Assembly: GCA_017631435.1 (NCBI GenBank)
Contig: JAGBTG010000056.1
Span: 169,220-233,219 of the forward strand
DNA from: Bacteroidales bacterium
Lineage (GTDB): Bacteria > Bacteroidota > Bacteroidia > Bacteroidales > UBA932
Length of the DNA stretch: 64,000 nt
Direction of reading: 5' to 3'
Part shown: positions 5,751-52,298 of the stretch, piece after piece
Layout: each line of letters starts with the position of its first letter
Position numbering within the stretch: the first letter of the stretch is position 1
Translations under genes and position numbers: made by a program
Notes under the pieces: model-generated
The model's input: the letters and a program-made list of their open reading frames with translations, nothing else
Database searches by the model: none
Told to the model about the DNA's origin: nothing

Positions 5751-5777
5751 CAAAGATACATTTTATTGTTACCTTTG
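5751..5777. promoter_or_regulatory. Divergent promoters for cdd and the glucosaminidase gene
   Basis: The minus-strand box TATCTTTG (5758-5751) serves cdd. The plus-strand box TACCTTTG (5770-5777) ends four bases before the ATG at 5782, so the plus transcript probably has almost no leader. Upstream -33 boxes are weak on both strands. Confidence 0.55.
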
Positions 5778-5781
5778 TTTC

Positions 5782-7713: not shown

Positions 7714-7715
7714 AT

Positions 7716-9778: not shown

Positions 9779-9782
9779 ACTG

Positions 9783-9810
9783 CAAAGTTAGATATTTTTC
9801 CCTACCTTTG
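9783..9810. promoter_or_regulatory. Divergent promoters, hydrolase gene and rsmI
   Basis: The minus-strand -7 box TAACTTTG (9790-9783) stops four bases from the hydrolase ATG at 9778. The plus-strand box TACCTTTG (9803-9810) stops six bases from the rsmI ATG at 9817. Transcription normally starts about five to seven bases after this box, so both mRNAs would begin at or next to the start codon. Confidence 0.6.
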
Positions 9811-9816
9811 CCTTCT

Positions 9817-10524: not shown

Positions 10525-10554
10525 TATTGAGGAATAATTTGAAAATGTATAAAA

Positions 10555-10674
10555 ATTGAGAAGTATTAAAAATGGAGGACCTCATTCGACGGTTGCGAGT
10601 TATTTCGTAGTGAAACGGAGAAATGACGAAGCAGAGGAGACTGTGTCGTCCTTCATTTTTAAATAATTCTCAAT
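10555..10674. repeat. Long REP-like stem-loop between rsmI and folB
   Basis: An outer 8-bp helix pairs ATTGAGAA (10555-10562) with TTCTCAAT (10667-10674). A second helix pairs 10566-10580 with 10648-10662 over 15 bp with one G-T pair. An inner arm pairs TTGC (10593-10596) with GCAG (10631-10634) and GTTATTTC (10599-10606) with GAAATGAC (10620-10627). The ATTTCG...GAGAAATGAC core resembles REP-like palindromes scattered in many Bacteroidota genomes. It may be a mobile palindromic element or a structured 5' leader of folB. No second copy was seen in this window. Confidence 0.7.
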
Positions 10675-10688
10675 ATATTTAAACTATT

Positions 10689-11039
10689 ATGGATAGAGTT
10701 GAGTTGATAGACATGCATTTCTATGCATATCACGGATGTTTTGAGGAAGAACAGATCATCGGGAATAAATTTCTTGTAAATTTTTGGGCAGAGGCAGACT
10801 TAAGCAAACCTGCTACTACCGACAACATAGAAGATGCCCTAAATTATCAGTTGGTATACAACGTGATAAAAGAACAGATGGAGATAAAATCACACCTGTT
10901 GGAGCATGTTGCAAGGAGAATCCTTGATGCCGTAAAGGCTCAGTTCCCATACATTGAGCGTGCCCAGGTACAGATCTCAAAACTCAATCCCCCATTGGGA
11001 GGCCAGGTATACGCCTCAAGGGTAACCATGAATCTATAA
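10689..11039 (+). CDS. folB: Dihydroneopterin aldolase
   Basis: Converts 7,8-dihydroneopterin to 6-hydroxymethyl-dihydropterin and glycolaldehyde in folate synthesis. The 116-residue protein has MDRVELIDMHFYAYHGCFEEEQIIGNKF at its N-terminus, holding the YHG..EEE signature with the pterin-binding Glu. The SHLLEHVARRI motif sits mid-protein, and the catalytic Lys lies in the C-terminal SKLNPPLGG region. Length matches the family (about 120). It lies 15 bases after the stem-loop at 10555-10674 and 23 bases before mtaB. Confidence 0.92.
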   Translation: MDRVELIDMHFYAYHGCFEEEQIIGNKFLVNFWAEADLSKPATTDNIEDALNYQLVYNVIKEQMEIKSHLLEHVARRILDAVKAQFPYIERAQVQISKLNPPLGGQVYASRVTMNL

Positions 11040-11062
11040 ATTGAATTGGCAAACAAGAGAAT

Positions 11063-12322
11063 ATGACAAACAAGACAGTAGCATTTGTAACATTAGGGTG
11101 TAAACTTAACTTTTCAGAAACTTCCACTATTGCCCAGCAGTTTCTCGACAACGGTTACGTGAAGGTTGCGCAGAACAAGCCTGCAGATATTTATGTGATA
11201 AATACCTGCAGTGTAACTGAACATGCCGACAAAAAATGCCGTCAGGCCATAAGGAAGCTCCACAAGCAGAACCCTGATGCAATTATTGCAGTTACAGGTT
11301 GCTATGCCCAGCTGAAACCAGCAGAGATTATGGCAATTGAGGGTGTTGATCTTGTAGTAGGTGCAGACCGTAAAGGTGATGTGTTCCAGTTGGTAAGTGA
11401 ACTCCCAGCAAAACAGGGCAGTGCCCGTTCATACTCTTGTGCCATAAACGAAGTTGAAACAATTTTCCCAGCATTTTCAAGTGGTGAGAGAACCCGCTCT
11501 TTCCTTAAAGTACAGGACGGTTGCAACTACCATTGCTCATACTGTACCATTCCACTGGCCCGAGGCAAGAGCCGTAACCTTCCAATCTCAGTATTGGTAG
11601 AAGAGGCCAAAGCCATTGCAGCTAAAGGAATTAAGGAGATAGTCCTTACAGGTGTAAATACCGGAGATTACGGACGTACAACAGGAGAAGACTTTCTGGA
11701 TCTTCTTAAAGCTTTGAACGAGGTTGAAGGAATTGAGAGATACCGTATCTCTTCAATTGAACCAAACCTTTTGCGCGAGGATATTATAGAGTGGATTGCC
11801 AGTGGTAACAAATTCCAGAACCATTTCCACATTCCTCTTCAGTGCGGCTCAGATGCTGTACTTAAAGTAATGCGCCGCCGCTATACCACAGCAATGTTTG
11901 CTGAAAAGATTGAGATGGTCCGCCGCATTATGGGAGATGTTTTCTTTGGAATTGATGTAATTGTAGGCTTCCCGGGTGAGACCGACGAGGAGTTTGAAAA
12001 ATGCTACAACTTCCTGAAAAACACCATCAAACCAGCATTCATCCATGTGTTCCCTTACTCCCGACGGGCCAATACTCCTGCGGCTGAAATGCCTGACCAG
12101 GTACACGAGGCAACCAAGACCGCAAGGGTAGAGGCGTTGACAAAACTCTCGGACCTGTTGCACGAAGAGTATGTTGCAAGACATAAAAATACCACCCAAT
12201 GGGTGTTATTTGAGTCAACCCAAAAAGGTGGTATGATGTATGGTTATACCGGCAACTACATCCGTGTGGAGAGGCCGTATGACAAATCAAAGATTGGCAA
12301 TATCTGCGAGGAAACGATTTAA
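11063..12322 (+). CDS. mtaB: tRNA (t6A37) methylthiotransferase MtaB
   Basis: A radical-SAM methylthiotransferase that turns t6A into ms2t6A at position 37 of tRNA. The 419-residue protein has the N-terminal MTTase domain with three cluster Cys (TLGCKLN, NTCSVT, TGCYAQ). The radical-SAM core carries the CxxxCxxC motif in QDGCNYHCSYCTIPLARGKSRN, followed by EIVLTGVNTGDYG and HIPLQCGSDAVLKVMRRRY. A C-terminal TRAM-like region is short. tsaD, which makes the t6A substrate, lies 4 kb away on the other strand. Confidence 0.93.
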   Translation: MTNKTVAFVTLGCKLNFSETSTIAQQFLDNGYVKVAQNKPADIYVINTCSVTEHADKKCRQAIRKLHKQNPDAIIAVTGCYAQLKPAEIMAIEGVDLVVGADRKGDVFQLVSELPAKQGSARSYSCAINEVETIFPAFSSGERTRSFLKVQDGCNYHCSYCTIPLARGKSRNLPISVLVEEAKAIAAKGIKEIVLTGVNTGDYGRTTGEDFLDLLKALNEVEGIERYRISSIEPNLLREDIIEWIASGNKFQNHFHIPLQCGSDAVLKVMRRRYTTAMFAEKIEMVRRIMGDVFFGIDVIVGFPGETDEEFEKCYNFLKNTIKPAFIHVFPYSRRANTPAAEMPDQVHEATKTARVEALTKLSDLLHEEYVARHKNTTQWVLFESTQKGGMMYGYTGNYIRVERPYDKSKIGNICEETI

Positions 12323-39550: not shown

Positions 39551-39760
39551 TTACACTTTATCATCTTTAAGTAGATGATGAGCAATGATATGATTATTAC
39601 CTAAATATCTTACAAGAAAAATTGTTTTACCGTTCTCTTCATGAATACTATAGAACACATACCAGGTTGTATTCATATTTCTGCTGAAGGAGGAGTAGAA
39701 CAAATCATTACCATATCGTTTAAAATAAGAAGGCGCATCCTTCTTTACTTTAAGCGGCAA
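39551..39760 (-). CDS. RelE/ParE-like toxin, start region disrupted or non-canonical
   Basis: The readable product from a TTG at 39760 is 69 residues (LPLKVKKDAPSYFKRYGND..., then TTWYVFYSIHE, FLVRYLGNNHIIAHHLL), resembling the C-terminal part of RelE-like toxins paired with Phd antitoxins. The same frame stays open back to the TGA that ends the antitoxin, adding RQYSEQLFKDIQTY, but there is no ATG in it. An ATG overlapping that TGA is one frame away and runs into a stop after 18 codons. Removing one base after it would give an intact 84-residue toxin. So it is either a frameshifted toxin or one made by an unusual start. It ends just before namZ. Confidence 0.6.
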   Translation of the reverse strand: MPLKVKKDAPSYFKRYGNDLFYSSFSRNMNTTWYVFYSIHEENGKTIFLVRYLGNNHIIAHHLLKDDKV

Positions 39761-39802
39761 GTAAGTTTGAATATCTTTGAATAATTGTTCTGAATACTGT
39801 CG

Positions 39803-40039
39803 TCATGCTATATTTTGGCCCTCCTTTCGCTCAAACATCTCATTCAACCCTTCACGCACTCGAGCAAGGACCTCGTCAACTGTAATAGCACGACTTAAAT
39901 CTTCATTTGAATTTACATTCTGCGCAACAAGAACAAAAGTTTCATTCTTGCCTCTCTGGATTACAACTTTCTCATTTTTAGCTATATCCAGATACTTTTT
40001 CATATTATTTCGCAATTCAGCGGAACTGATAATAACCAT
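39803..40039 (-). CDS. Phd/YefM-family antitoxin
   Basis: A 78-residue protein, start MVIISSAELRNNMKKYLDIAKNEKVVIQRGKNETFVLVAQ: the Phd/YefM N-terminal DNA-binding fold. The C-terminal 35 residues (acidic and helical, DEVLARVREGLNEMFERKEGQ) would wrap the toxin. Its stop codon TGA overlaps a possible toxin ATG. The upstream region contains two ACATTATA/TGTACAT-like palindromic words (around 40050-40070) that could be the operator. Confidence 0.8.
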   Translation of the reverse strand: MVIISSAELRNNMKKYLDIAKNEKVVIQRGKNETFVLVAQNVNSNEDLSRAITVDEVLARVREGLNEMFERKEGQNIA

Positions 40040-40094: not shown

Positions 40095-40364
40095 TTACAA
40101 ACCAATTGCTCCACATTCAACAAGTTTGCTGATCCAACTTTTAGAATCCTTACTTGCCAAATCTGCATCAATTCCATATCTCTGCTGCAAAAATTCTGCC
40201 GCATCTTCAGCGGTAAATTCCTTGTTGCAGAAATTCTCCCACAGTGCCGTTGCACTCTCATTGAATGATATTATCTTTGTCATCTCCACGCCGTGAGTCC
40301 CCTGTTTTACAACCACTTTCTCACCGGCTATCTCCCTTAAAATATAATTGCTGCTTAATTTCAT
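40095..40364 (-). CDS. PqqD-family protein (RiPP recognition element)
   Basis: An 89-residue protein with the PqqD fold. It has MKLSSNYILREIAGEKVVVKQG at the start (beta strands), ISFNESATALWENF in the middle (the NxxAxxLW helix motif) and a helical end with FLQQRYGIDADLASKDSKSWISKLVECGAI. PqqD-like domains bind the leader of a precursor peptide and hand it to modifying enzymes. No radical-SAM enzyme or cyclase lies next to it. In related genomes such proteins occur with HPr-kinase-like, nucleotidyltransferase and S24/S26 genes, and exactly that set is at 48258-52298. The ATG at 40364 is chosen over a longer frame because a TATCTTTG box lies at 40390-40383. Confidence 0.8.
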   Translation of the reverse strand: MKLSSNYILREIAGEKVVVKQGTHGVEMTKIISFNESATALWENFCNKEFTAEDAAEFLQQRYGIDADLASKDSKSWISKLVECGAIGL

Positions 40365-40402
40365 AGTGCTTTTGTTTTGTTGCAAAGATAATCAACATTT
40401 TT

Positions 40403-40528
40403 GTTACGTCGTCTTTTTGTACAATTGCCTGAATATAAGATTTTTAATTTTCGCAAGTTTATATTATTTTGATTATCTATTTTGTAATTATCTGATATTT
40501 AAATAATTGTACAAAAAGACAACGTAAC
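40403..40528. repeat. 24-bp inverted repeat flanking 78 bp
   Basis: The arm 40403-40426 (GTTACGTCGTCTTTTTGTAC and four more bases) is the reverse complement of 40505-40528 with a single mismatch. The 78 bp between are AT-rich and hold no reading frame of note. It sits exactly between the PqqD promoter and the riboswitch promoter. It could be a small palindromic mobile element, a two-site operator or, in RNA, a long hairpin. Confidence 0.75.
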
Positions 40529-40538
40529 TTAAAGTTTA

Positions 40539-40571
40539 TTTGCAAAATAAATTTTTAAATACATATCTTTG
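40539..40571 (+). promoter_or_regulatory. Promoter of the cobalamin-riboswitch operon
   Basis: TTTG at 40539-40542, a 21-bp spacer and TATCTTTG at 40564-40571 fit the Bacteroidota consensus. Transcription would begin about at 40577, inside or just before the first riboswitch helix, which is expected for an aptamer at the 5' end. Confidence 0.7.
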
Positions 40572-40572
40572 C

Positions 40573-40761
40573 AATGCAAACGGAGCCGCAAACAATTTTT
40601 CATTGTTGGCGGTGAAAAGGGAATCCGGTGAAAATCCGGAACAATACCAGTTGCTGTAAGTTCTATCCACGTTGGAACATGTTGGCTGTACTCTTTGCCA
40701 CTGATCTTTAAGATTGGGAAGGCGCAGCCAAAGAACGAGTCAGAAGACCTGCCTTTGCATT
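40573..40761 (+). promoter_or_regulatory. Cobalamin (adenosylcobalamin) riboswitch
   Basis: P1 pairs AATGCAAA (40573-40580) with TTTGCATT (40754-40761). Between are the class signatures GGTGAAAAGGGAA, CCGGTGAAAATCCGGAAC, GCTGTAAG, the GCCACTG B12-box region, TGGGAAGGCG and GAGTCAGAAGACCTGCC, in the order of the known aptamer. When cobalamin binds, expression of the downstream uptake operon is expected to drop. Downstream, a CCTG...CAGG hairpin (about 40771-40787) precedes the first gene by some 130 bases. The exact expression platform is not resolved. Confidence 0.95.
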
Positions 40762-40913
40762 TTAGATTCTTGCCTGCTGGAATACAGGTCATAATCATAC
40801 AAAACCATTACACAAAACGTATCAGGCAATTGCATTCTATGCTCCATTTTTGGGCATCAGTTTCTGCATCTGCATGCTGTACGGATTGCTGTAATATCCT
40901 GCAAATTACACCA

Positions 40914-41417
40914 ATGATTATGGCATCAGATGCCAACAATTTAATCCAAAAAAGGAATTTGTGGAAATTCCTTAAAATGGTTCAGGTTCAAAACAGGCCT
41001 GTGTTCAAGATTATGGCTGGGGTACCAACCTCTGTCATTTGGATTGATATACTTGAAAGAGATACCAATAAGACAATTCAGGTCCTGTCAATATCTGAAT
41101 TCATAGAACAGCTTCACACACTTCCCACCAAAGGGGCAGTCTACAGAATAAATCAGAGAACATATTCTCTTCCCGACGAAGAATATGACATATCCGCAGG
41201 GGAGTCTCTATTTACAGCATCCTGCAGGGAGCAGCTTACATTGCAGATTCTCCCATCCATGCTTTTTTACCTCTGCTACCAGAAAGTAAAGGCCAGAGCT
41301 CCTAATTTCCTTGAATGCATGGAAGATATAAAAAAATACAAACTGACCCGCAAGGATATGGAACGCTTGACGCCATACATAAGCGAGTGCAACAAACAAC
41401 TCATAGACAAACTTTAA
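40914..41417 (+). CDS. Protein of unknown function, first gene of the B12 operon
   Basis: I do not recognise a family. From the ATG at 40914 the product has 167 residues (MIMASDANNLIQKRNLW...); the ATG at 40920 is equally possible. It has no signal peptide or membrane segment, so it should be cytosolic. The first 90 residues look alpha/beta (QNRPVFKIMAGVPTSVIWID), and the last 50 are helical and basic with three Cys (YLCYQKVKARAPNFLECMED). The frame is open further upstream, but that part overlaps the riboswitch and cannot be coding. It is odd to find an unknown cytosolic protein as first gene of a cobalamin uptake operon; it lies 17 bases before a 40-codon peptide gene, so it may act on that peptide. 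Confidence 0.65.
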   Translation: MIMASDANNLIQKRNLWKFLKMVQVQNRPVFKIMAGVPTSVIWIDILERDTNKTIQVLSISEFIEQLHTLPTKGAVYRINQRTYSLPDEEYDISAGESLFTASCREQLTLQILPSMLFYLCYQKVKARAPNFLECMEDIKKYKLTRKDMERLTPYISECNKQLIDKL

Positions 41418-41434
41418 CCTTAAATTCTTACATT

Positions 41435-41557
41435 ATGGAAACATTGGATTACTCGGCACCTAAGGTGCAAATTATTGAAATTGAAGTGGAAGCAGGTTTT
41501 GCTGTATCACAGCAGGAACCTTCTGAATGGGAAGAACTTGAACTTTATGGATATTAA
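41435..41557 (+). CDS. 40-residue peptide, possible precursor peptide
   Basis: A short gene from ATG 41435 giving METLDYSAPKVQIIEIEVEA then GFAVSQQEPSEWEELELYGY. The first half (APKVQIIEIEVEAGFAVSQ) is a pattern seen in many small Bacteroidota peptides of unknown role. The second half is acidic and aromatic and ends in YGY. There is no signal peptide. The split into a hydrophobic-acidic leader-like half and a distinct tail fits a ribosomally made precursor peptide, and a PqqD-like protein is encoded 1.1 kb away. It could instead be an assembly factor or a non-functional frame; the next gene begins 22 bases later. Confidence 0.6.
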   Translation: METLDYSAPKVQIIEIEVEAGFAVSQQEPSEWEELELYGY

Positions 41558-41579
41558 TAAACTAAAGACGGACATTGCT

Positions 41580-43280
41580 ATGAAGAAGACTATAATTACA
41601 ATCATGGCTGCTCTGGCATGTGTATCATGTGAAAAGGAGAATACTATCTTCTCCCAGCCTGAAGAGACATTTGTTGTAAAAGGTTACAGCAATACCATTG
41701 AGACCAAAACATCTTTTGGTACACCAAGTGGAAATGAAATTCCTTACAATTGGTCATCGGGAGATTTCATCTGGTTGGGAAACAACAAGAGCAACAGCAT
41801 AAATGATGATTGCACACTTGCAAATTTCACATTTAAAGGTGGTACTGCAATTGTTGGAACCGGACACATTTTCTATAATATGACTGGAACAGCCAAGACT
41901 GCTAAAGTACTTGCCACTCAAACAGCAGACGGCAACCTTGGTAACGATGGCGATTTTGGCTATGCTGTTCTTGACGAGTACAATTCATTCTACCTCTCAC
42001 ACAAGACATCATATTTGTGGTTCAATACCACAAGCAAAGATGCTGATATGCCAAAACTGCTGTCAATCAGCCTTAAAACAGAAGGAGTTGCTATAGCCGG
42101 CGAAAGAGTCTACAATTTCAGCATTGGCGAATGGGAAGATGCAGTAAGTAACGGCAGCCCGGAAATTGTTCTAGCTTTTGATGGCGGTTATCAGTTGCAG
42201 GAATCAAACGCCGGAATTATGGCTGCAATGGTAATGTTGCCGGCAGAGGTTGCAGGTACTGCACTCACTGTAACATACAATTTTGAGGATGGAACTCATT
42301 TCACCCAGAATTTGAATCCTACAAAAAATTTTACCCAGGGTAAAACACTCAGGGTTTCACAAGAGATCAACAAGTCAGACCTTGTTACTCCTGAACCCGA
42401 GCTTGATTATGTGTTGAGAGTACTCACTTTTGAGGATAACGATGCAAGGTTTGAACCGTATACTCTTGATTACGCTGGAGTTGATATTGAAACATGGAGT
42501 GATCTTATAGATAATCCACAATATATGGGTCCACTCACTTATGGAGACTGTCAGACTGCAGCATACCAATGGTATGATGAGTGCAATACAGAATTGTACC
42601 ATATTTTTCCCGACAATTATTCATATTGCTTCTGGGGTGGTGGTCATGCCATTTCAAACTATTGGGGTGCAGGTTGGTCAGATGAGGACAGAAATACCCA
42701 TATTGCCAAATATTATGGTGATGATTATGTAGAAAACAATGCTGGCAATGATGCAGCATTAGGTTGGTTCAACCTTCAGATGATGGTACCTGTAAAAGCC
42801 CATTCAGGAGACAACTTTGCAGTACACTACGGTTACAAGGATTTCTTTACATATATTGAAAATCTCCCTGAAATATCATTTGCCGATGGCGAGAAACGTG
42901 TTATTGACCACATGTGGGTAACCAACACCAACTATACCCTTAACCAGTTGTACAACGGAGTGAAGAGTGAGGCCGGCAACAGTTTTGGCGGTAACTGGAC
43001 AGGCTTGACAGAGAGTGCATGGATGAAGATCGTTGCCCAGGGATTTGATGACCCTGATGCCGATGCTTATGCAGAACCTGTGAGTGAGGTGGAGTTCTAT
43101 CTTGTAAAGGGTGAGAATGTTGTAACTGATTGGCAGAAATGGGATTTGTCGGGATTAGGAGAAGTGGCAAAAGTCAGGTTCAATTTCCTTTATTCTGATG
43201 AGATGGGTGGAAGATATGGATTTACAATTCCAGGTTATTTTGCTTATGATGATGTGGCTGTGAGATTTCCTAAAGAATAG
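41580..43280 (+). CDS. DUF4465 surface lipoprotein of the B12 locus
   Basis: A 566-residue lipoprotein: MKKTIITIMAALACVSC with anchor Cys17 followed by EKE, consistent with surface display. Residues 25-300 form a beta-rich N-terminal domain that resembles fimbrillin-like folds (EIPYNWSSGDFIWLGNN). A DUF4465 domain covers about 310-566. It includes YVLRVLTFEDND, GDCQTAAYQWYDE, the Gly/Trp-rich FWGGGHAISNYWGAGW, TNTNYTLNQLYNG and the end YGFTIPGYFAYDDVAVRF. DUF4465 proteins recur in riboswitch-controlled cobalamin loci, so a role in corrinoid capture is likely. The ATG at 41580 gives a proper signal; a longer frame from 41475 does not. It is four bases from the next gene. Confidence 0.85.
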   Translation: MKKTIITIMAALACVSCEKENTIFSQPEETFVVKGYSNTIETKTSFGTPSGNEIPYNWSSGDFIWLGNNKSNSINDDCTLANFTFKGGTAIVGTGHIFYNMTGTAKTAKVLATQTADGNLGNDGDFGYAVLDEYNSFYLSHKTSYLWFNTTSKDADMPKLLSISLKTEGVAIAGERVYNFSIGEWEDAVSNGSPEIVLAFDGGYQLQESNAGIMAAMVMLPAEVAGTALTVTYNFEDGTHFTQNLNPTKNFTQGKTLRVSQEINKSDLVTPEPELDYVLRVLTFEDNDARFEPYTLDYAGVDIETWSDLIDNPQYMGPLTYGDCQTAAYQWYDECNTELYHIFPDNYSYCFWGGGHAISNYWGAGWSDEDRNTHIAKYYGDDYVENNAGNDAALGWFNLQMMVPVKAHSGDNFAVHYGYKDFFTYIENLPEISFADGEKRVIDHMWVTNTNYTLNQLYNGVKSEAGNSFGGNWTGLTESAWMKIVAQGFDDPDADAYAEPVSEVEFYLVKGENVVTDWQKWDLSGLGEVAKVRFNFLYSDEMGGRYGFTIPGYFAYDDVAVRFPKE

Positions 43281-43283
43281 AGT

Positions 43284-45050
43284 ATGAGAAAACTTCTTAA
43301 ATTTTTGTTTTTATATATGATGGCTGTGGTTACATCGTCTTGTAATGTAGACGATGTAATCACTACATCTTTACCCCCAGAGATAATTTTAGACAGTGAA
43401 ACAGGAATATACACTGTAAAAACGGGGCGAGAAATTGTAATAGCACCTTCCTATAAAAATGCAGAAGGAGCAGATTATCTTTGGACAATGGAAGGAGAAG
43501 TGCTTGGCACTTCCCCCTCTTTGCGTTTTATGAACGATGTTACCGGTGAGTATTTCATTAACTTGGAGGTTACTGCAGAAGGTGGAACTGCCAAAGATGA
43601 GATAAGGGTTGATGTAATTGACCTTGAGATACCAACAGTTACTATAGCTGGCAGCAGACAGCAGACTGTAGCAACTGGTACAACCATTACTTTTTCTGCA
43701 GCTGTGAAATCAACATCACTTGAAACAGGGATAGTATGGAAAGTAAATGGAACTCAGTCTGGTACAGATAATGAATTTACATTTAAAGCTTCTGCACCTG
43801 GCAAATACACCATTACAGTAACTGCAACAAATGATGACGGCACCCATACGGATAAAATTGAGTTGGATGTACTTGATCCCGACGATATGCCGTTCAATTG
43901 GGAATTTGCAAAATACACATATCATACAGTTGCCGGCAGGAAGCTGCTTATTGCACCAACTTCTGTAAGTGATGACCAATCAATTGAATACTTGTGGAAA
44001 ACAGTTGGAAATGAGGGTGATTCCAGCACAACCTCCAGATTTGTATTTGTTGCGGAGAATCCGGGAGAATATAGGATAAATGCTTCTGCCACTGCCTATA
44101 AAGGTGATAACAAGGTAATGTTAAACCATGAGTTTGTTGTTACAGTTTACGAGGAAAACAAATTCTTCAGATCTGTTGCAGTTACCTCAAAATCTGACTG
44201 GAACAAAGTGTATGAGTATACACCGGCTCCAGGACAGTTTATTAATGAACTCAAGACAGGAGGATTTGACAACACCCAGACAACACCTGAGGCTGCAATT
44301 GCATATGCAGAGAAAAGGATGTCTGAAAAGGACTCTAAAGGTAACCCATATCCTAACTGGGTTTCATTGGGCGGCTTTGGAGGATACATTATTGTGGGAT
44401 TTGACCATAGCATTGAGAACAAAGGAGATTATGATTTTGGCATCCTCGGCAACTCATTCAACGGTTCGTCTGAGCCCGGAATAGTATGGGTAATGCAGGA
44501 TGAGAACGGTAATGGTCTTCCCGACGATACCTGGTATGAGCTTGCCGGATCAGAAACCGGTAAGGATGAGACAATACAGGATTATTCAGTTACCTATTAC
44601 CGTCCAAGTGGCCCGAATATGCCGGTACAGTGGTCAGATAACAAAGGCAATAGGGGAGAGATTGATTATCTTAAGCAGTTCCACAGGCAGGAATACTATT
44701 ATCCTCTATGGATTAAAGAGGACAGTTATACCCTTACTGGCACTTGTCTTAAAGCAACCAACTATGATGCATCAGGTAATGGTTCCTATTGGGTAAATCC
44801 TCATTATGATTGGGGATATGCAGACAACTGGAGCCCGATTGACCGCCTTACAAACGAGGAAAATGCCAACGCTGATGCCAATGCAAACTATTTCAAAATC
44901 TCCAACGCAATAGATTTTGAGTGCAAGCCGGTGGACCTCAAATTTATTGATTTTGTAAAGGTACAGGTTGGCGTAAATACCAAGAGCGGATGGCTTGGTG
45001 AAGTTTCTACGGAGGTGTTCGGATTCTTTGATTATAATATGAAGAAATAG
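43284..45050 (+). CDS. PKD-like multidomain surface lipoprotein of the B12 locus
   Basis: A 588-residue lipoprotein with signal MRKLLKFLFLYMMAVVTSSC; Cys20 is followed by NVDD. Three PKD-like Ig-fold domains cover about 35-110, 113-198 and 205-295 (for example YLWTMEGEVLGTSPSLRFM and KVNGTQSGTDNEFTFKA). The C-terminal 290 residues form a globular domain with SLGGFGGYIIVGFDHSIEN, EPGIVWVMQDENGNGLPDD, TWYELAGSE, and YWVNPHYDWGYADNW. This domain pairs with DUF4465 and BtuG proteins in other Bacteroidota cobalamin operons. I infer a cobalamin-binding or receptor-assembly role; no catalytic residues stand out. It is four bases after the DUF4465 gene and two bases before btuG. Confidence 0.82.
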   Translation: MRKLLKFLFLYMMAVVTSSCNVDDVITTSLPPEIILDSETGIYTVKTGREIVIAPSYKNAEGADYLWTMEGEVLGTSPSLRFMNDVTGEYFINLEVTAEGGTAKDEIRVDVIDLEIPTVTIAGSRQQTVATGTTITFSAAVKSTSLETGIVWKVNGTQSGTDNEFTFKASAPGKYTITVTATNDDGTHTDKIELDVLDPDDMPFNWEFAKYTYHTVAGRKLLIAPTSVSDDQSIEYLWKTVGNEGDSSTTSRFVFVAENPGEYRINASATAYKGDNKVMLNHEFVVTVYEENKFFRSVAVTSKSDWNKVYEYTPAPGQFINELKTGGFDNTQTTPEAAIAYAEKRMSEKDSKGNPYPNWVSLGGFGGYIIVGFDHSIENKGDYDFGILGNSFNGSSEPGIVWVMQDENGNGLPDDTWYELAGSETGKDETIQDYSVTYYRPSGPNMPVQWSDNKGNRGEIDYLKQFHRQEYYYPLWIKEDSYTLTGTCLKATNYDASGNGSYWVNPHYDWGYADNWSPIDRLTNEENANADANANYFKISNAIDFECKPVDLKFIDFVKVQVGVNTKSGWLGEVSTEVFGFFDYNMKK

Positions 45051-45051
45051 A

Positions 45052-46122
45052 ATGGTTAAGAATATAATTAAGTTGGTTCTTCTTTCCTTTATCCTGCTCA
45101 TGCCATCGTGCATGGAGTGGGATTATGGATTGGAGGAGAGTTTTGACATGTCTTCGTCGGGAGAAGGACTGTTCATTTGCAATGAAGGGAATTTCCAGTA
45201 TGGAAATGCTACGTTGTCTTATTATGACCCTCAGAGTAAAGTTGTGCAGAATGAAGTGTTCTACCGTTCCAATGCCATGAAGTTGGGGGATGTTTGCCAG
45301 AGTATGGTTATCAGGGATGGTATCGGTTGGGTTGTGGTGAACAATTCACATGTGATTTTTGCAATTGACATCAATACTTTTAAAGAGGTTGGCCGCATTA
45401 CAAATCTCACTTCTCCACGTTATATCCATTTTCTCTCTGATGAGAAGGCTTATGTGACTCAGATATGGGACAATAGAATTTTCATTGTAAACCCAAAAAA
45501 GCTTGAGATTACCGGTTATATTGATGTTCCAAATATGACAATGGAGAGCGGTTCTACAGAGCAGATGGTGCAGTATGGCAAGTATGTTTATGTCAACTGC
45601 TGGTCTTATCAGAACCGTATCATAAAGATTGATACTGAGACTGATAAGGTTGTTGATGAGCTCACTGTGGGTATCCAGCCTACTTCCTTGGTAATGGATT
45701 GCAACAATAAGTTGTGGACTGTTACTGATGGTGGTTATGAGGGCTCTCCTTATGGCCATGAGGCACCTTCACTTTACAGGATAGATGCTGAAACATTCAA
45801 GGTGGAAAAACAGTTCAAGTTTGATTTTGGCGACTGGCCGTCAGAGGTTCAGCTCAATGGTACAAAGGACAAAATCTACTGGTTGAATGATGACGTATGG
45901 GAGATGGATGTCAATGCAGACAGGGTTCCTGTCAGGCCATTCCTACCTTATAACGGCACATTGTATTACGGACTTACCGTTTGTCCTCATACAGGTGATG
46001 TGTATGTTGCTGATGCCGTTGATTATGTTCAGCAGGGCAAAGTTTACAGATACTCCAAAGATAAGGTGCTGTTGGATGAATTTTATGTTGGTATTATTCC
46101 GGGAGCTTTCTGCTGGAAATAA
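45052..46122 (+). CDS. btuG: BtuG-type cobalamin-binding surface lipoprotein
   Basis: A 356-residue lipoprotein with signal MVKNIIKLVLLSFILLMPSC and acidic residues after Cys20. It is a seven-bladed beta-propeller of the DUF5074/YncE type, with motifs GLFICNEGNFQYGNATLSYY, LTSPRYIHFLSDEKAYVTQ, GSTEQMVQYGKYVYVNCW, IKIDTETDKVVDELTVGIQP, LWTVTDGGYEGSPYGHEAP and the end FYVGIIPGAFCWK. This pattern is that of BtuG, which binds cobalamin with extremely high affinity on the surface of gut Bacteroides and sits as a lid on BtuB. The gene directly precedes btuB, as expected for that complex. Confidence 0.92.
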   Translation: MVKNIIKLVLLSFILLMPSCMEWDYGLEESFDMSSSGEGLFICNEGNFQYGNATLSYYDPQSKVVQNEVFYRSNAMKLGDVCQSMVIRDGIGWVVVNNSHVIFAIDINTFKEVGRITNLTSPRYIHFLSDEKAYVTQIWDNRIFIVNPKKLEITGYIDVPNMTMESGSTEQMVQYGKYVYVNCWSYQNRIIKIDTETDKVVDELTVGIQPTSLVMDCNNKLWTVTDGGYEGSPYGHEAPSLYRIDAETFKVEKQFKFDFGDWPSEVQLNGTKDKIYWLNDDVWEMDVNADRVPVRPFLPYNGTLYYGLTVCPHTGDVYVADAVDYVQQGKVYRYSKDKVLLDEFYVGIIPGAFCWK

Positions 46123-46148
46123 TACTGCAGGAATAATGTGTTATTGGT

Positions 46149-48203
46149 ATGAAAAAATATATATTGTTTTTAACTGTTTCTTTAGTCTGCAATTCTTTTT
46201 TGTTGGCCCAAAAGGTTTCATCAAAAGAGTGGTCTACTAAAGGATTTACACTTAAGGAGATTACTGTATTGGGTGAGCGTCCTATGAAGGAGATTGGTGC
46301 CCAGCTTACCAAGTTTGATTCTGTAGTGCTCAAAGAGAATATTGCCCTTTCTATGGCTGACGTGCTCACTTTCAGTTCTCCAATTTTTGTAAAGAGCTAT
46401 GGAAGGGCCACACTCTCTACAGTCTCTTTCCGTGGAACTTCACCTTCTCATACTCAGGTCACTTGGAACGGTATGAAAATTAACAATCCAATGCTTGGTA
46501 TGACTGACTTTTCAATGATTCCATCATATTTTATTGATGATGCTTCCCTCCTTCATGGAACCTCTTCTGTAAATGAGACTGGAGGAGGTTTGGGTGGAGC
46601 TGTTAAAATGTCTACTGTTCCAGCGCAAAATGAAGGTTTTGGCGTTCAGTATGTTCAGGGTGTTGGATCTTTTAAAACCTTTGATGAGTTTTTACGCCTT
46701 ACTTATGGAAGTGAAAAGTGGCAGATGTCTACCCGTGCTGTGCTCTCATCTTCTCCTAATGAATATGAGTATAAGAACCATGATAAGAAGGAGAATATCT
46801 ATGACGAGGATATGAATATTGTAGGACAATATTATCCTGTTGAAAATAACAGGAGCGGCTCCTATAAGGATTTTCATTTTCTGCAAGAGGTATATTACAA
46901 TACAGGCAAGGGAGACCGATTTGGTTTCAATGCCTGGTATATAAACTCCAATCGTGAACTTCCAATGCTTACTACAGATTATGGTGAGGAGATGGATTTT
47001 GATAACCGCCAGCGTGAACACACTTTCCGAAGTATCCTTTCATGGGACCATTTCCGTTCAAATTGGAAGTTGTCTGCTAAAGGTGGATATATAAATACAT
47101 GGATGGCTTATGACTATAAAAGAGATGTTGGAAATGGTAATATGGCCCATATGACCAGATCAAGAAGTAAAATCAACACATTTTATGGTCAGGCCGAAAG
47201 TGAGTATTTTATAGGGAAGAAATGGCTATTTACAGCAAATGTGGCGGTACATCAGCATTTTGTTGAGAGTCAGGACAAGAATATCATTCTGCAGGAAGGT
47301 GGAAAGGGAATTGTAGGATACAATAAGGCACGTGTGGAACTTTCAAGTTCTGTTTCAGCAAAATACCGTCCAACAGATAATATAGGATTGTCTTTTGTAT
47401 TGCGTGAAGATATGTATGGAGAGGATTTTACACCTCTTATTCCAGCATTTTTTATTGATGAAGTAATTTCTAAAAAGGGAAATATAACAGCCAAAGCTTC
47501 AGTTTCAAGAAATTTCCGTTTCCCTACACTCAACGATTTGTATTTTCTTCCGGGTGGAAATCCTAACCTCAAGAAAGAGAGCGGAATAACCTATGATGCA
47601 GGAATTTCATTTGCTGTAGCCAAAGAAAACAGGTATACCTTGAACGGTTCCCTGAACTGGTTTGATTCATACATAAACGACTGGATTCTGTGGCTCCCTA
47701 CAACCAAAGGATTTTTCTCGCCAAAAAACATTAAGGATGTACATGCATACGGTATTGAAACTCAATGGGATTATTCTGTATTGATTACACAGAGGCTAAA
47801 ATTTGACCTTAATGCCACATACTCGTGGACACCTTCAATCAATGAGGGGGAGCCCATTTCTGCAGCAGACCAGTCTGTGGGCAAGCAGCTTCCGTATGTT
47901 CCGCATCATTCAGCCACCATTACCGGACGCTTGTCATGGAACAGCTGGTCATTCATTTACAAATGGTGCTACTACAGTGAGCGCTTTACAATGTCGAGCA
48001 ATGACATTTCCCTTACCGGAAGGCTGCCGGAATATTATATGAACAATATAACCGTAGAAAAAGGTGTCTCATTCAAATTTGCTGATATCTCAATCAAAGG
48101 ATCGGTAAACAATTTGTTTGATGAAGAGTATTTGTCAGTGCTTTCGCGCCCTATGCCAGGGATAAATTTTGAGATATTTCTTGGCATTACACCTAAATTT
48201 TAA
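46149..48203 (+). CDS. btuB: TonB-dependent cobalamin receptor BtuB
   Basis: A 684-residue outer-membrane barrel. Signal peptide MKKYILFLTVSLVCNSFLLAQ, then a candidate TonB box (LKEITVLGE). The plug domain lies at about 45-160 (NIALSMADVLTFSSPIFVKSYGRA, STVSFRGTSPSHTQVTWNG), and a beta-barrel of about 520 residues follows. The C-terminal signature INFEIFLGITPKF ends in an aromatic residue. It lacks the N-terminal carboxypeptidase-like domain of SusC proteins and no SusD follows, which agrees with a BtuB rather than a glycan transporter. It is the last gene of the riboswitch operon. ABC transporter genes (btuCDF) are not in the window. Confidence 0.92.
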   Translation: MKKYILFLTVSLVCNSFLLAQKVSSKEWSTKGFTLKEITVLGERPMKEIGAQLTKFDSVVLKENIALSMADVLTFSSPIFVKSYGRATLSTVSFRGTSPSHTQVTWNGMKINNPMLGMTDFSMIPSYFIDDASLLHGTSSVNETGGGLGGAVKMSTVPAQNEGFGVQYVQGVGSFKTFDEFLRLTYGSEKWQMSTRAVLSSSPNEYEYKNHDKKENIYDEDMNIVGQYYPVENNRSGSYKDFHFLQEVYYNTGKGDRFGFNAWYINSNRELPMLTTDYGEEMDFDNRQREHTFRSILSWDHFRSNWKLSAKGGYINTWMAYDYKRDVGNGNMAHMTRSRSKINTFYGQAESEYFIGKKWLFTANVAVHQHFVESQDKNIILQEGGKGIVGYNKARVELSSSVSAKYRPTDNIGLSFVLREDMYGEDFTPLIPAFFIDEVISKKGNITAKASVSRNFRFPTLNDLYFLPGGNPNLKKESGITYDAGISFAVAKENRYTLNGSLNWFDSYINDWILWLPTTKGFFSPKNIKDVHAYGIETQWDYSVLITQRLKFDLNATYSWTPSINEGEPISAADQSVGKQLPYVPHHSATITGRLSWNSWSFIYKWCYYSERFTMSSNDISLTGRLPEYYMNNITVEKGVSFKFADISIKGSVNNLFDEEYLSVLSRPMPGINFEIFLGITPKF

Positions 48204-48209
48204 TTAAAG

Positions 48210-48243
48210 TGACCTTTAAGACTCTGTCCTAAAGGTCATTTTG
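48210..48243 (+). terminator. Hairpin ending the B12 operon
   Basis: TGACCTTT (48210-48217) pairs with AAAGGTCA (48231-48238), followed by four T. The stem sequence is shared with hairpins at 26902 and 52188, and the loop holds GAC...GTC. Confidence 0.75.
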
Positions 48244-48244
48244 C

Positions 48245-48252
48245 TATATTTG
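48245..48252 (+). promoter_or_regulatory. -7 box of the four-gene maturation operon
   Basis: TATATTTG at 48245-48252 ends five bases before the ATG at 48258, so the mRNA is probably leaderless. No clear -33 TTTG lies 19-21 bases upstream, which suggests a weak or activator-dependent promoter. Confidence 0.5.
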
Positions 48253-48257
48253 CAGTT

Positions 48258-49382
48258 ATGATTTTAAAGAAGCCTATACAAATGTTATTTGCCCTTCTCA
48301 AAGGGTCTTTGCTCAATTGTAATGTGGAGTATAAGTTGTTTGAAACAGCCACAGCTCAGGAGTGGGCTGAGTGCTTTGCTGCTGCATCAAAACAGGGTGT
48401 TCTGGCTCTTGCATGGGATGGAGTTCAGACATTGCCATTGGAGATGCAACCTCCTAAGGAGTTGAAATTCAGATGGGCTATAAGTGTAGACAAATATGAG
48501 GAGAGACATCGCAAATACTGTAAGGCAGTTCATGATCTTCAACAGTTATATAAGGAGCATGGTATAGCAACTGTGCAGTTGAAGGGTGTAGGTTTTTCTT
48601 GGGGATATAATCAGCCTCATCATAGGGAAGGGGGTGACATTGACATCTATACTTATTCATCTGATACTCTAAGGATGAGTCATCGGGAAGCAAATGAATT
48701 GGCAGACAGGTTGATGGTGCAGATGGGAAATCCTGTTGAGATGCATGGATACAAGCACAGTAATTTCAATTTCAATGGGATTCCTGTTGAAAATCATAAG
48801 ATGTTTGTGAATATGCATGTGAACAGGCAGTTTATGCAGCCTTTGAATGATTATCTCCTTAAGGTTCTTGATCCTGTAGAGGTTTCTTTCTATGATGGTG
48901 AATACAGGATATTTGTTCCTTCACCACAGTTCAATACCTTGTTTATCAGCTGCCATGCTTTTCAGCATTATGGCAGTGGGATTGCACTGCATCATCTTTA
49001 TGATTGGGCTACAATACTTGCCAATCACGGATTGTCTCTACCTGAGGGCAATTTGTTGAATAAAAAGTTTCTCAGGGCCATTGCAGCGTTTACACATCTT
49101 TGCAACAAATATCTGGGTACGAGTATAGATTTGTGTGGTTTTCCTGCAGGTTATGAGGAGATGGCTGATGAAATGTTGTATGAGATGCTTAATCCGTTGT
49201 ACAATAAGGTGGTACCGTATACCAATCCTGTTATGATTTTCCTTTATAAGACCAGAAGGTTTTCTAGGGGTACCATGCTTTCCAAGCAGGTTTTTGACAA
49301 GTCTATAATACGGAGCATCCTGGAGTCTGCGGTTGCACATATTAAACATCCCCAAACTATTTTGGGCAGAGGAGATAGGTAA
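48258..49382 (+). CDS. NTP_transf_5 family nucleotidyltransferase
   Basis: A 374-residue cytosolic protein of the uncharacterised nucleotidyltransferase family. The catalytic core is QLKGVGFSWGYNQPHHREGGDIDIY: Lys109-Gly110, the basic patch HHRE and the metal-binding GDIDIY at 126-131. Downstream is ISCHAFQHYGSGIALHHLYDWATIL, with a helical C-terminus. Such enzymes accompany HPr-kinase-like proteins in some lasso-peptide and related gene clusters, where one was shown to modify or extend a phosphorylated peptide tail; the substrate here is unknown. It is the first gene of an operon, and its TAATG stop-start overlap couples it to the ABC transporter gene. Confidence 0.85.
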   Translation: MILKKPIQMLFALLKGSLLNCNVEYKLFETATAQEWAECFAAASKQGVLALAWDGVQTLPLEMQPPKELKFRWAISVDKYEERHRKYCKAVHDLQQLYKEHGIATVQLKGVGFSWGYNQPHHREGGDIDIYTYSSDTLRMSHREANELADRLMVQMGNPVEMHGYKHSNFNFNGIPVENHKMFVNMHVNRQFMQPLNDYLLKVLDPVEVSFYDGEYRIFVPSPQFNTLFISCHAFQHYGSGIALHHLYDWATILANHGLSLPEGNLLNKKFLRAIAAFTHLCNKYLGTSIDLCGFPAGYEEMADEMLYEMLNPLYNKVVPYTNPVMIFLYKTRRFSRGTMLSKQVFDKSIIRSILESAVAHIKHPQTILGRGDR

Positions 49383-51001
49383 TGATTGGAAGGATACTGA
49401 ATTTGTTGGTAAATGACGAAAAGAGGGAAGGTGTAAAAGTTGTAGCTTCAATTTTTATATCTGCTCTCCTTGATTTTGTTGGTTTGGCTTCTCTGCTTCC
49501 TGTTTTGTATTTTCTTCTTGAGGGGGGCGGTAACAGAGAGGCCGCTTTGTATTTTGCGTTGCTTGCTGTTGGGGTAGTCATTTTCAAAAGTGCTCTTTCT
49601 ACTTATTTTTCAAGGTTCCAGAGCCGTTATCTTCTTGGATTGTACAGGAGATTGAGTTTTACCCTCTATTCCAACTATTATAATAACGGACTGCTTTTTA
49701 TAAGGGAAAAAGGTTACAGCACTCTTGGGCATTCCGTAAATTTCATGTGCTATACTTTCAGTGAAAGGATTCTTTCACCGCTTATGAGAATGGCAGGCGA
49801 TATTCTTCTTATACTTCTTGTTACAGTGGCACTTCTCTTTTATGATTGGCGTACTATTGCTGTCCTTTATTTGTGCTTTATCCCTTTTATGCTGGTTTAT
49901 GTAACCTTTGTGCGTAAAAAAGTTAAGATTTATGGCCAACAGGAGTTTCAAGCCCGAAGGCAACAGGCCAAGACTGTGGCTGACACTTTCCGCGGTTATG
50001 CCGAACTTGAGATTAATGATGCTTTTCCAAGACTACAGGAATCTTTTCTCAATGGTGTTGACCAGGTGAGCAGCAACAGGATTAAGATGCAGACACTAAA
50101 TATGTTTCCAAAGTTCCTCTCTGAACTGGCTATTATTGTGGGGATGGTTGTTATGGTTCTTCTTGGCGGTGATAATGCCCGGATACTTGTTGGTGTTTTT
50201 GCTGTGTGTGCTTTCAGGTTGCTTCCTGCTTTCAGAGGTTTGCTTTCCGGGTTTACCCAACTCCAGAATGCCCTTCCTGCGCTTGATACAATTGAGGAGG
50301 GAGTTGTTTCCCGTAATGCCCATTTTGTACAAGGTAACGACGTCTCTTTGTACAATTCGTTGGAAATCAGTGGTGTGAAATTTTCATATGGAGACAAAGT
50401 GCTTGATTTTGGCACTCACAGGATTGAGAAAGGGGAGTATGTGGGGTTTTGCGGGTATAGCGGCGTAGGCAAGACTACGCTGTTCAATCTCATTTTGGGA
50501 TTTTTGCAGCCACAGGAGGGTGCGGTGCTGGTTGACGGTGAGCCGCTAACAGAGAGGAACAGGAAAGGTTGGCTTAAGCATATCGGTTATGTGCCTCAGG
50601 AGGTGTTCATTTTCAATGGTTCTTTGGCAGAGAATGTTGCGCTTGGGTATAAGGATATTGATGGTGATAAGGTAATGCAAGTCTTACAGATGGTTTCTCT
50701 TGGGAGTTGGGTTTCCGGATTGGAGAATGGGATATTCAGCAGTTTGGGCGAAGGCGGTGGAAAGTTGTCGGGAGGACAAAAACAGAGGATTGGAATTGCA
50801 AGGGCTTTGTATAAGGGGGCAAGTCTGCTGCTGCTTGATGAGGCAACATCTTCATTGGACAACAATACTGAAAGGGAGATAAATGAAATGCTTCTGGGGC
50901 TTAAAGAGGAGATTCCAGGGCTTACTATTCTAAGTATTGCCCATAGGGAGAGCACTTTGGCGTATTGTAACAGAATAATTAATTTGGAAGTTAATGTGTA
51001 G
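49382..51001 (+). CDS. ABC exporter, fused membrane and ATPase domains
   Basis: A 539-residue half-transporter. The membrane domain (1-330) has six hydrophobic segments. The ATPase domain has Walker A GYSGVGKTT (358-366), the Q-loop in HIGYVPQEVF, the signature LSGGQ (462-466), Walker B LLLLDE (482-487) and H-loop His in SIAHRES. It has no N-terminal C39 peptidase domain, so any leader removal must be done by a separate enzyme; an S26-like peptidase is encoded two genes on. As an exporter in a peptide-maturation type cluster, its cargo is plausibly a peptide, which is inference. It overlaps the first gene by one base and the next by eight. Confidence 0.9.
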   Translation: MIGRILNLLVNDEKREGVKVVASIFISALLDFVGLASLLPVLYFLLEGGGNREAALYFALLAVGVVIFKSALSTYFSRFQSRYLLGLYRRLSFTLYSNYYNNGLLFIREKGYSTLGHSVNFMCYTFSERILSPLMRMAGDILLILLVTVALLFYDWRTIAVLYLCFIPFMLVYVTFVRKKVKIYGQQEFQARRQQAKTVADTFRGYAELEINDAFPRLQESFLNGVDQVSSNRIKMQTLNMFPKFLSELAIIVGMVVMVLLGGDNARILVGVFAVCAFRLLPAFRGLLSGFTQLQNALPALDTIEEGVVSRNAHFVQGNDVSLYNSLEISGVKFSYGDKVLDFGTHRIEKGEYVGFCGYSGVGKTTLFNLILGFLQPQEGAVLVDGEPLTERNRKGWLKHIGYVPQEVFIFNGSLAENVALGYKDIDGDKVMQVLQMVSLGSWVSGLENGIFSSLGEGGGKLSGGQKQRIGIARALYKGASLLLLDEATSSLDNNTEREINEMLLGLKEEIPGLTILSIAHRESTLAYCNRIINLEVNV

Positions 51002-51845
51002 TAAAAAATATATTGTTGCGCAACATTGTTTTGAAGTATGTTCTGAGGTGCTGTGCAATGCAGTTTCAAAGATTCAGGGATTCAAACCATTTGAGGTTAC
51101 TTCCGGTACGCCGGAGTTTTCATTTGCAATGGGGGAGGAGCTCCCGGCTGAATATAATGTGCAGTATTCCTTTACCTATGAAGATATTCTTGGTGAGTAC
51201 GGTTCTACTGAAAACGGGTTTTTTCTTAAACAGACTCCTGCCAATGAGGAGCCGCTCCTTTTGTGGACAAGTGACCATAATGACGTTGTCTTTTTGGCCG
51301 GAAATCTCTCGCCGCGCCTTGTAAGGTTTGCTCTATGGGTAGGTTACGGACTCAAGACTGCTGCTTCCGGAACAATTGCCATTCACAGCAGCTGCATTGT
51401 TGCAGATGGACGGGCAGTAATCTTCTTGGGGGAAAGTGGTACCGGCAAAAGTACACATACACGCTTATGGAGGGAGAATATTCCAGGTGCCGTGTTGCTG
51501 AACGATGACAGCCCAATTGTACGTATATTTGACGGTTCCGTATGGGTTTTTGGAAGCCCCTGGAGCGGAAAAACTCCTTGCTACAAACAGGAACGCTATC
51601 CTCTGGCAGCATGCGTGAGACTTTCACAGGCCCCTTATAATGCTATACATAAGTTGCATGTAATAAAAGGATATGCCGCCCTGCATCCGTCTTGCCCACC
51701 GGAGTTTGCCTATGATGAACGGATTTATTCACACATCTCTGCCGCTCTTGGCACATTGCTAAAATCTGTACCTGTATATCACCTGGAATGCCTTCCCAAT
51801 GCTGCTGCAGCACATCTTTCATTTGAAACTGTTTTATCACGATAG
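50994..51845 (+). CDS. HPr-kinase/PEP-carboxykinase-like P-loop protein
   Basis: A 283-residue protein. Its C-terminal part is related to the catalytic domain of HPr kinase: P-loop GESGTGKST at 146-154, LLNDDSP with two Asp (170-173) and GSPWSGK (187-193). The N-terminal 130 residues do not match the N-terminal domain of true HPr kinase, and no HPr or CcpA partner is near. Relatives in lasso-peptide clusters phosphorylate a Ser on the precursor peptide. Here the neighbours (nucleotidyltransferase, exporter, S26-like peptidase) make a peptide-kinase role likely, though unproven. The ATG at 50994 overlaps the end of the ABC gene by eight bases. Confidence 0.85.
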   Translation: MCSKKYIVAQHCFEVCSEVLCNAVSKIQGFKPFEVTSGTPEFSFAMGEELPAEYNVQYSFTYEDILGEYGSTENGFFLKQTPANEEPLLLWTSDHNDVVFLAGNLSPRLVRFALWVGYGLKTAASGTIAIHSSCIVADGRAVIFLGESGTGKSTHTRLWRENIPGAVLLNDDSPIVRIFDGSVWVFGSPWSGKTPCYKQERYPLAACVRLSQAPYNAIHKLHVIKGYAALHPSCPPEFAYDERIYSHISAALGTLLKSVPVYHLECLPNAAAAHLSFETVLSR

Positions 51846-51857
51846 ATCTTTGTGTGT

Positions 51858-52298
51858 ATGAAAACCCTCTCCAACGACATATTCTTTGCACAGGTTGAAT
51901 CAGAGATTGCTGCCGGGCGAAGTGTGCGGTTTAAAGTTAAAGGACACTCAATGTATCCTTTGCTTCGCAACGGGAAGGATGAGGTTACTTTGTCCCCACT
52001 TGAAAAGGTGCCTGCAGTTAATGATATTGTCCTTTTCCGCTACCGTGGCAAACACATTCTGCACAGGATCATTTCCATTGAAGGTGACACATACACTATC
52101 CAGGGTGACGGCATATATCTCTCTTGTGAATATTGCACCCGCGAAGAAATTATTGGCGTAGTTACCCATATCCACAAAAATGGAAAAGTGACCATTGGGA
52201 CGACGTCAAAAAGGTCAAAATTCTATATTTTCTGCTGGCACAGGTTGCGGTTTTGCAGAAGGTATCTGTTGGCAGTGCTCAGAAGAGTGTACAAATAA
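51858..52298 (+). CDS. S26/S24-like signal-peptidase-fold protein
   Basis: A 146-residue protein. The nucleophile motif is KGHSMYPLL (Ser31), followed by VNDIVLFRYRGKHILHRI with the HR pair (69-70) that in SipW-type signal peptidases replaces the usual Lys. Then come IQGDGIY and a C-terminal hydrophobic/basic segment (FYIFCWHRLRFCRRYLLAVL) that may sit in the membrane. It is a candidate for leader removal from the cargo of the ABC exporter. An ATG at 51858 is chosen; an in-frame GTG lies two codons upstream. A copy of the window's intergenic hairpin family is embedded in codons around 52188-52216, so the C-terminus may have been altered by that element. Confidence 0.82.
   Translation: MKTLSNDIFFAQVESEIAAGRSVRFKVKGHSMYPLLRNGKDEVTLSPLEKVPAVNDIVLFRYRGKHILHRIISIEGDTYTIQGDGIYLSCEYCTREEIIGVVTHIHKNGKVTIGTTSKRSKFYIFCWHRLRFCRRYLLAVLRRVYK

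Follow-up and report, generated by a model that had tools for sequence, protein, structure and literature searches.

A probable maturation system of the linear polyphosphorylated peptide type in Bacteroidales and its lipoprotein-paired precursors

A PqqD-like protein, an NTP_transf_5 nucleotidyltransferase, an ABC exporter, an HprK-like kinase and an S26 peptidase form one system that is encoded together in related Bacteroidales, often with a short peptide. We describe it from a stretch of 64,000 nucleotides of contig JAGBTG010000056.1 of a Bacteroidales bacterium (assembly GCA_017631435.1), hereafter called the window, in which all six genes named in an initial annotation are present at the positions listed in Table 1. 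The set corresponds to the enzymes of the linear polyphosphorylated peptide (LPP) pathway, and its occurrence across Bacteroidales is new. Our verdict is that it is conserved and widespread and represents a variant of that pathway with a new genomic logic, in which one machine serves many precursors, nearly all of them with a lipoprotein of their own.

Maturation enzymes and comparison with the LPP pathway

Searching with the kinase returned at least 473 loci from Phocaeicola, Bacteroides, Alistipes, Prevotella and others, mostly metagenome assemblies, and the neighbours within a radius of 6 kb were counted for the best 80, of which 45 hold 6 kb on each side. An S26 peptidase was found near the kinase in 79 loci, an ABC exporter in 58, a PqqD-like protein in 52, an NTP_transf_5 enzyme in 17 and a peptide of the window type in 12, which bears out the earlier proposal that the PqqD-like protein and the four-gene operon are parts of one set. 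A more permissive search for PqqD in the named loci without one found none. The gene order is PqqD-NTP5-ABC-HprK-S26 in L044 and L045, peptide-HprK-S26-PqqD-NTP5-ABC in L047, which comes from another family, and peptide-lipoprotein-PqqD-HprK-S26 in L043, while the kinase gene lies directly 3' of the peptide gene in L047 and L143. At L109 of Phocaeicola faecalis FXJYN30E22, a peptide (3280–3396) and a lipoprotein frame (3529–6840) precede co-oriented PqqD, NTP5, ABC, kinase and S26 genes (6944–11297). The PqqD and nucleotidyltransferase genes of L041 are divergent and about 300–400 bases apart, a peptide-lipoprotein pair adjoins the nucleotidyltransferase gene in L039, and in the window a B12 unit with its peptide occupies the gap. 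Because its content differs between these three, we regard the PqqD-NTP5 gap as a variable site, and the split of PqqD from the four-gene operon in the window is probably secondary, judging from these gene orders. The B12 operon, formerly seen as a mere interruption of the set, itself contains the peptide. In L071 (1716–3956), an S24 peptidase domain forms the N-terminus of the ABC exporter beside the PqqD and kinase genes, a fusion that ties cleavage to export.

Asp73 of the PqqD-like protein does not vary among the 40 rows available, which cover the window and 39 of the 51 relatives picked; the catalytic triad of the S26 peptidase is conserved with Ser in 65/65, His in 64/65 and Asp in 63/65 sequences, P-loop and DD of the kinase are conserved, and the GGDID motif is found in 8 of 19 matched NTP_transf_5 relatives. 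A phmmer search of the single PqqD sequence against the PDB gave no match, whereas a PqqD profile did match, the RiPP (ribosomally synthesized and post-translationally modified peptide) recognition element (RRE) fold being closest to lasso RRE-leader complexes; entry 9x8z (LppB) was not among the matches listed, its presence in the library being unchecked. The kinase is the less certain call. While 16 of 17 kinases match the HprK-related kinase A model (NCBIfam TIGR04352) at E 0.01, that of the window reaches 18.6 bits where the cut-off is 200 and so is not a member, and it has no Pfam HPr kinase match. Since its profile matches PEPCK and ABC-type P-loop proteins in the PDB, the assignment draws on weak HprK-related matches together with gene context.

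LPPs were described in May 2026 from the lppA-K-B-S-D-N cluster of Paenibacillus alginolyticus by Popov et al., who showed binding, phosphorylation and cleavage via deletion, mass spectrometry and structure, and reported the family as restricted to Bacillota and its biological role as unknown (PMC13381572). Common to both systems are a discrete RRE, an NTP transferase, an MsbA-like exporter and the lack of a B2 protease; the SipW-like, archaeal-type S26 leader peptidase of LPP has a Ser-His-Asp triad, as has the Bacteroidales enzyme. The kinase is probably shared too, a likeness that draws on HprK-like features rather than on LppK itself. The peptides share a YxxPxV leader and a conserved Ser closing an A-x-S stretch (AQS in LPP); compared with the LPP motif YxxPxVLxHQxIxFETxxS, the Bacteroidales peptides contain YxxPx[VIL] and the Ser, while HQxIxFET is absent. 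Since the set matches LPP part for part, the product class is not new, contrary to the initial annotation. The latter's view that the set recognises, phosphorylates or nucleotidylates, cleaves and exports a ribosomal peptide very probably holds for recognition, phosphorylation, cleavage and export, by analogy with the same five protein kinds in LPP (PMC13381572). The systems differ in the core, where short acidic tails of 6–23 residues after the Ser stand against a 45-residue LPP core, and in organisation, as Bacteroidales genomes hold up to 12 dispersed precursors, nearly all lipoprotein-paired, and the NTP transferase often lies away from the kinase. LPP clusters in Bacilli are reported from polysaccharide-gene neighbourhoods (PMC13381572); polysaccharide-like genes, as judged by eye, follow the cassette in L114 (8959–12959). 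In our literature search, with bioRxiv and most subscription journals outside its scope, PMC13381572 was the only paper with this enzyme set among the matches listed, and none described it in Bacteroidales.

Lasso peptides likewise use a discrete RRE and a Y/WxxP leader (PMC13381572), and paeninodin and pseudomycoidin are tailored by an HprK-like kinase and a nucleotidyltransferase (PMC8498205). These two rely on a protease of the B2 kind, whereas the Bacteroidales leader peptidase is of S26 type. We rejected a lasso peptide as product: Transglut_core3, the lasso B2 protease domain, had no match in any of the eight peptide-bearing genomes searched, partly incomplete ones, in line with its absence as noted earlier from the window. 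No macrolactam cyclase was found among ten window proteins scanned, a genome-wide search not having been made.

Precursor peptides, lipoprotein partners and kinase clades

The initial annotation is incomplete on the 40-residue peptide of the window, which is not confined to this locus: a profile search found six such precursors scattered over the genome and paired with lipoproteins of surface type. Searches of the same genome for PqqD and for the kinase gave a single match each, the PqqD-like gene being the only one with the query used. The peptides of this genome share Y-x-x-P-x-V-E-x-I-E-V-x-V-E-K-G-F-A-x-S followed by an acidic tail, and 11 of 39 genomes of the genus match the peptide profile with E no higher than 0.01, each holding between 1 and 12 copies. 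Aligning 43 peptides shows no variation at Tyr6, Pro9 and Glu19 and conservation of at least 90 % at Gly21, Phe22, Ala23 and Ser25. The conserved residues of 44 leaders are encoded by several synonymous codons, and 173 similar pairs differ at the three codon positions 823, 291 and 1669 times, respectively, which demonstrates selection on the protein. All 44 tails are net negative and none contains Cys. Searches against NCBIfam and Pfam gave only chance-level matches for the peptide, and inspection by eye revealed neither Sec signal nor lipobox. One copy in L039 (12876–12962) ends directly after GFAAS, without tail or adjoining lipoprotein, and is perhaps broken.

At E 0.05 we obtained 49 peptide matches, four of them at a locus edge. 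A lipoprotein gene follows 42 of the 45 readable peptides (40 by a lipobox-rule script, two more by reading) at a distance of −8 to 183 bases, mostly below 60; the remaining three are in L091, L118 and L143, the kinase gene being next in the last. Forty of the 42 following lipoproteins combine a fimbrillin-like N-terminal module with varied C-termini. Together with one further partner they make a set of 43, all with a lipobox Cys and with a nearly invariant W-x-x-x-D motif; a model of the N-terminal module matches 41 of the 43 at E 0.001, 29 of these 41 having been used to build it. Recognisable C-termini comprise BspA-type LRR (LRR_5) in six, DUF4465 in five, Fib_succ_major in two and peptidases M48 and M64 in one each. 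Fimbrillins (Mfa_like_1, type V pili) are likewise lipoproteins with an N-terminal TRT...W..GD motif, but PF13149 matches only six partners, leaving 37 of 43, the window lipoprotein included, unmatched at E 0.001, and the C-termini are varied (adhesin-like, B12-binding, peptidase). An AlphaFold model of the N-terminal module (pLDDT 45.8) was too poor for judging its fold. The window's genome has eight strong modules, six of them with a peptide. Another genome carries a tandem array of five fimbrillin-module matches (G026:C12:42681–51500; L226 and L233), one of them within a frame some 290 residues long, suggesting stalk and tip subunits.

BtuH binds B12 through its DUF4465 domain (PMC8941943, PMC13398666). 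In all five DUF4465 units (window, G011, G017, G021 and G024) a cobalamin riboswitch precedes the peptide, while none was detected at four other peptide units of the window's genome. B12 uptake as the entire purpose of the system was rejected on these grounds, DUF4465 being found in 5 of 43 partners.

Co-occurrence was assessed in 238 genomes sampled across the order, with E thresholds of 1e-4 for the first and 1e-3 for a second peptide model. The kinase is present in 10 of 11 genomes positive for either peptide type versus 23 of 227 negative ones (p 7e-9), in 6/7 versus 27/231 for the first model alone (4/5 without the two seed-giving genomes), and in 8/12 genomes with fimbrillin-like modules versus 25/226. 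Within the genus, GFAxS peptides occur at E 1e-6 in 8 of 9 genomes with the NTP5 cassette (5/6 without seed genomes) versus 1 of 28. Peptide, module and kinase thus co-occur across genomes, and the neighbourhood comparison named beforehand as the refuting test found peptide, PqqD and kinase together, leaving the proposal unrefuted. One of the 11 positives, G256 (L259:1504–2613), was inspected because its frame spans 370 codons; it has a type-2 peptide-like start in frame with a lipoprotein signal sequence, either a natural fusion or an assembly frame error.

Genomes of the genus with a kinase of another clade mostly lack the window-type peptide, G021 being an exception. A search for lipoprotein modules found 7 to 21 in six such genomes, and 0, 1 and 0 in three kinase-less ones. 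A small upstream YxxP open reading frame (ORF) precedes 17 of 26 readable non-redundant modules versus 18 of 951 control genes (Fisher p 7e-21), about 12 of the 18 control matches reading as divergent lipoproteins or kinase. These 26 were fetched by module rather than by peptide (30 loci kept of 78 module matches), with a model built from peptide partners; a count of 50/66 is biased because loci L075–L104 were fetched by peptide matches. L227 was scored negative although a YxxP ORF is visible, and L231, also scored negative, comes from a kinase-less genome. In these second-type ORFs, Y-x-x-P is accompanied by a hydrophobic stretch whose last residue is Ser, Thr or Asn and which often reads G-[IV]-x-C-x-S. 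Leader types divide along kinase clades: in a midpoint-rooted tree of 48 kinases, with leader types labelled by hand and 16 rows without a known peptide, two groups separate with full support, group one comprising 23 GFAxS loci and none of the second type, and group two a single GFAxS locus (L056) beside eight second-type ones, that is 23/23 versus 1/9 for GFAxS.

Proposed mechanism and rival explanations

In these gut bacteria the system is likely to be the LPP pathway in a Bacteroidales version, which serves many precursors in trans by binding, phosphorylating, trimming and exporting them, and whose products would act with their partner lipoproteins at the surface. Gene content, motifs, pairing and co-occurrence are observations; binding, phosphorylation, cleavage and export we infer by homology, and the surface partnership from gene pairing only. 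The PqqD-like RRE would bind the beta-strand leader through Y-x-x-P, with invariant Asp73 holding the leader Tyr, and the HprK-like kinase would add one phosphate, or perhaps several, to the Ser conserved in the A-x-S stretch. Where present, the NTP_transf_5 enzyme may put a sugar or nucleotidyl group on the Ser phosphate. The S26 peptidase would cut off the leader near GF|AxS, and the ABC exporter would move the acidic product into the periplasm (about 9–26 residues if cut at that site). Each product may then act at the cell surface together with the fimbrillin-module lipoprotein whose gene adjoins that of its precursor. Partners are as a rule lipoproteins of surface type, five genomes having one that binds B12 and is preceded by a riboswitch. 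Most simply read, the mature phosphopeptide would assist its partner at the surface, cap it or anchor it there.

Several observations weigh against this interpretation. The nucleotidyltransferase and PqqD are close to the kinase in just 17 and 52 of the 80 named loci, kinase models score below their cut-offs, and after YxxPxV the Bacteroidales leader continues with ExIEVxVEKGF instead of the LxHQxIxFET of LPP. L056 (from G021) violates the clade-leader rule, 23 of 227 peptide-negative genomes carry the kinase, G188 combines peptide and module yet lacks a kinase at E 1e-15, no kinase was found in the peptide-bearing G006, and G240, G095 and G140 have modules without kinase. Two of the 43 partners (L104, L107) lack the N-terminal module, and two of the eight strong modules of the window's genome lack a peptide. 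The co-occurrence tests, moreover, ignore kinship, the genus E threshold was chosen afterwards, and named loci behind the models may share species with sampled genomes.

The cassette could also mature the peptide into a secreted antimicrobial or signal, the adjoining lipoprotein then being an immunity or receptor protein, as might be suspected from the conflict-type horizontal spread inferred for LPP (PMC13381572). Such a role fits poorly with partners as large and varied as those listed above, with riboswitch-led units in five genomes, with up to 12 copies per genome and with short, Cys-free and uniformly negative tails, and we hold it to be unlikely. That the peptide genes are upstream reading frames which regulate lipoprotein translation and are unrelated to the cassette appears very unlikely: the nearness of the lipoprotein gene and the G256 peptide running in frame into a lipoprotein would agree with it, but conservation at residue level with synonymous codon change, the match of YxxP to RRE leaders, the co-occurrence with the kinase, the kinase as next gene in L047 and L143 and the peptide of L118 without a following lipoprotein all argue otherwise.

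A fimbria-like assembly, with the unprocessed peptide as a structural element such as a donor strand and the cassette acting on another substrate, would account for a conserved stretch that alternates as a beta strand would and for tandem modules, some of about 290 residues, that resemble stalk and tip subunits. A beta-strand leader is, however, also what an RRE binds, leader type tracks kinase clade, and the apparent lack of Sec signal and lipobox is at odds with a structural role, which renders this highly improbable. Chance proximity of cassette and peptide, for which one might point to the part of the B12 unit that separates them in the window, is already contradicted by their co-occurrence and has a negligible probability.

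Layout of the window and significance

Table 1. Features of the peptide-bearing unit and the maturation genes in the window.
Feature	Position	Strand	Basis of assignment
PqqD-like discrete RRE (leader-binding protein)	40095..40364	-	Pfam PF05402 PqqD, E 4e-10
Cobalamin riboswitch at head of peptide-bearing unit	40563..40770	+	Rfam RF00174, 94.8 bits
Uncharacterised protein of ~160 residues, 5' of peptide; start uncertain	40914..41417	+	
40-residue precursor peptide; leader Y6xxP9...E19xGFA23xS25, acidic tail	41435..41557	+	
Lipoprotein, partner of the peptide: lipobox Cys, fimbrillin-like N-terminal module, C-terminal DUF4465 (BtuH-type B12-binding)	41580..43280	+	
PKD-domain protein, B12 unit	43284..45050	+	
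DUF5074 beta-propeller-like protein, B12 unit	45052..46122	+	
TonB-dependent receptor	46149..48203	+	PF00593 E 2e-33, PF07715
Inverted repeat separating B12 unit from maturation operon	48210..48238	.	
NTP_transf_5 nucleotidyltransferase (LppN-like), GGDID motif	48258..49382	+	PF14907 E 1e-34
MsbA/PglK-type ABC exporter without peptidase domain (LppD-like)	49382..51001	+	Pfam
HprK-like P-loop kinase (LppK-like)	50994..51845	+	Weak assignment
S26-type Ser-His-Asp peptidase (LppS-like leader peptidase)	51852..52298	+	Weaker assignment than PqqD and NTP_transf_5

The protein encoded between riboswitch and peptide matched no Pfam family; homologues (about 25 % identity, E 1e-14 to 1e-15) are found in L088 and L089, also upstream of the peptide. 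Within the B12 unit, we take the DUF5074 protein to be BtuG-like, and the TonB-dependent receptor is read as BtuB from its position. The inverted repeat is terminator-like for the minus strand according to the scan, and four T follow it on the plus strand. A Phd/YefM-like antitoxin gene (PF02604, E 7e-7, slightly below cut-off) and, after it, a 69-residue frame without Pfam match sit at 39551–40039, between a NamZ-like gene and PqqD; the probable counterpart in L041 has 112 residues. A Bacteroidales small SRP RNA (Rfam RF04183, 105.7 bits) lies at 5116–5223.

With an LPP-type set across Bacteroidales, up to 12 precursors per genome and the pairing with lipoproteins, the LPP family, published without an assigned role, gains a concrete hypothesis, that of a peptide partner for surface proteins, as well as culturable hosts for testing it, such as Phocaeicola faecalis. 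An explanation is also offered for a small Bacteroidales gene family without Pfam or NCBIfam model, and the peptides are linked to B12 capture through the riboswitch-led DUF4465 units. More tentatively, and with somewhat less than even confidence, we suggest that one trans-acting LPP-type machine makes exported phosphopeptides, each for one surface lipoprotein such as an adhesin, a B12-binding protein or a protease, by which surface proteins in general would be licensed, capped or anchored. If true, this would be a peptide partner system undescribed in the literature searched, and would give LPPs their first functional clue.

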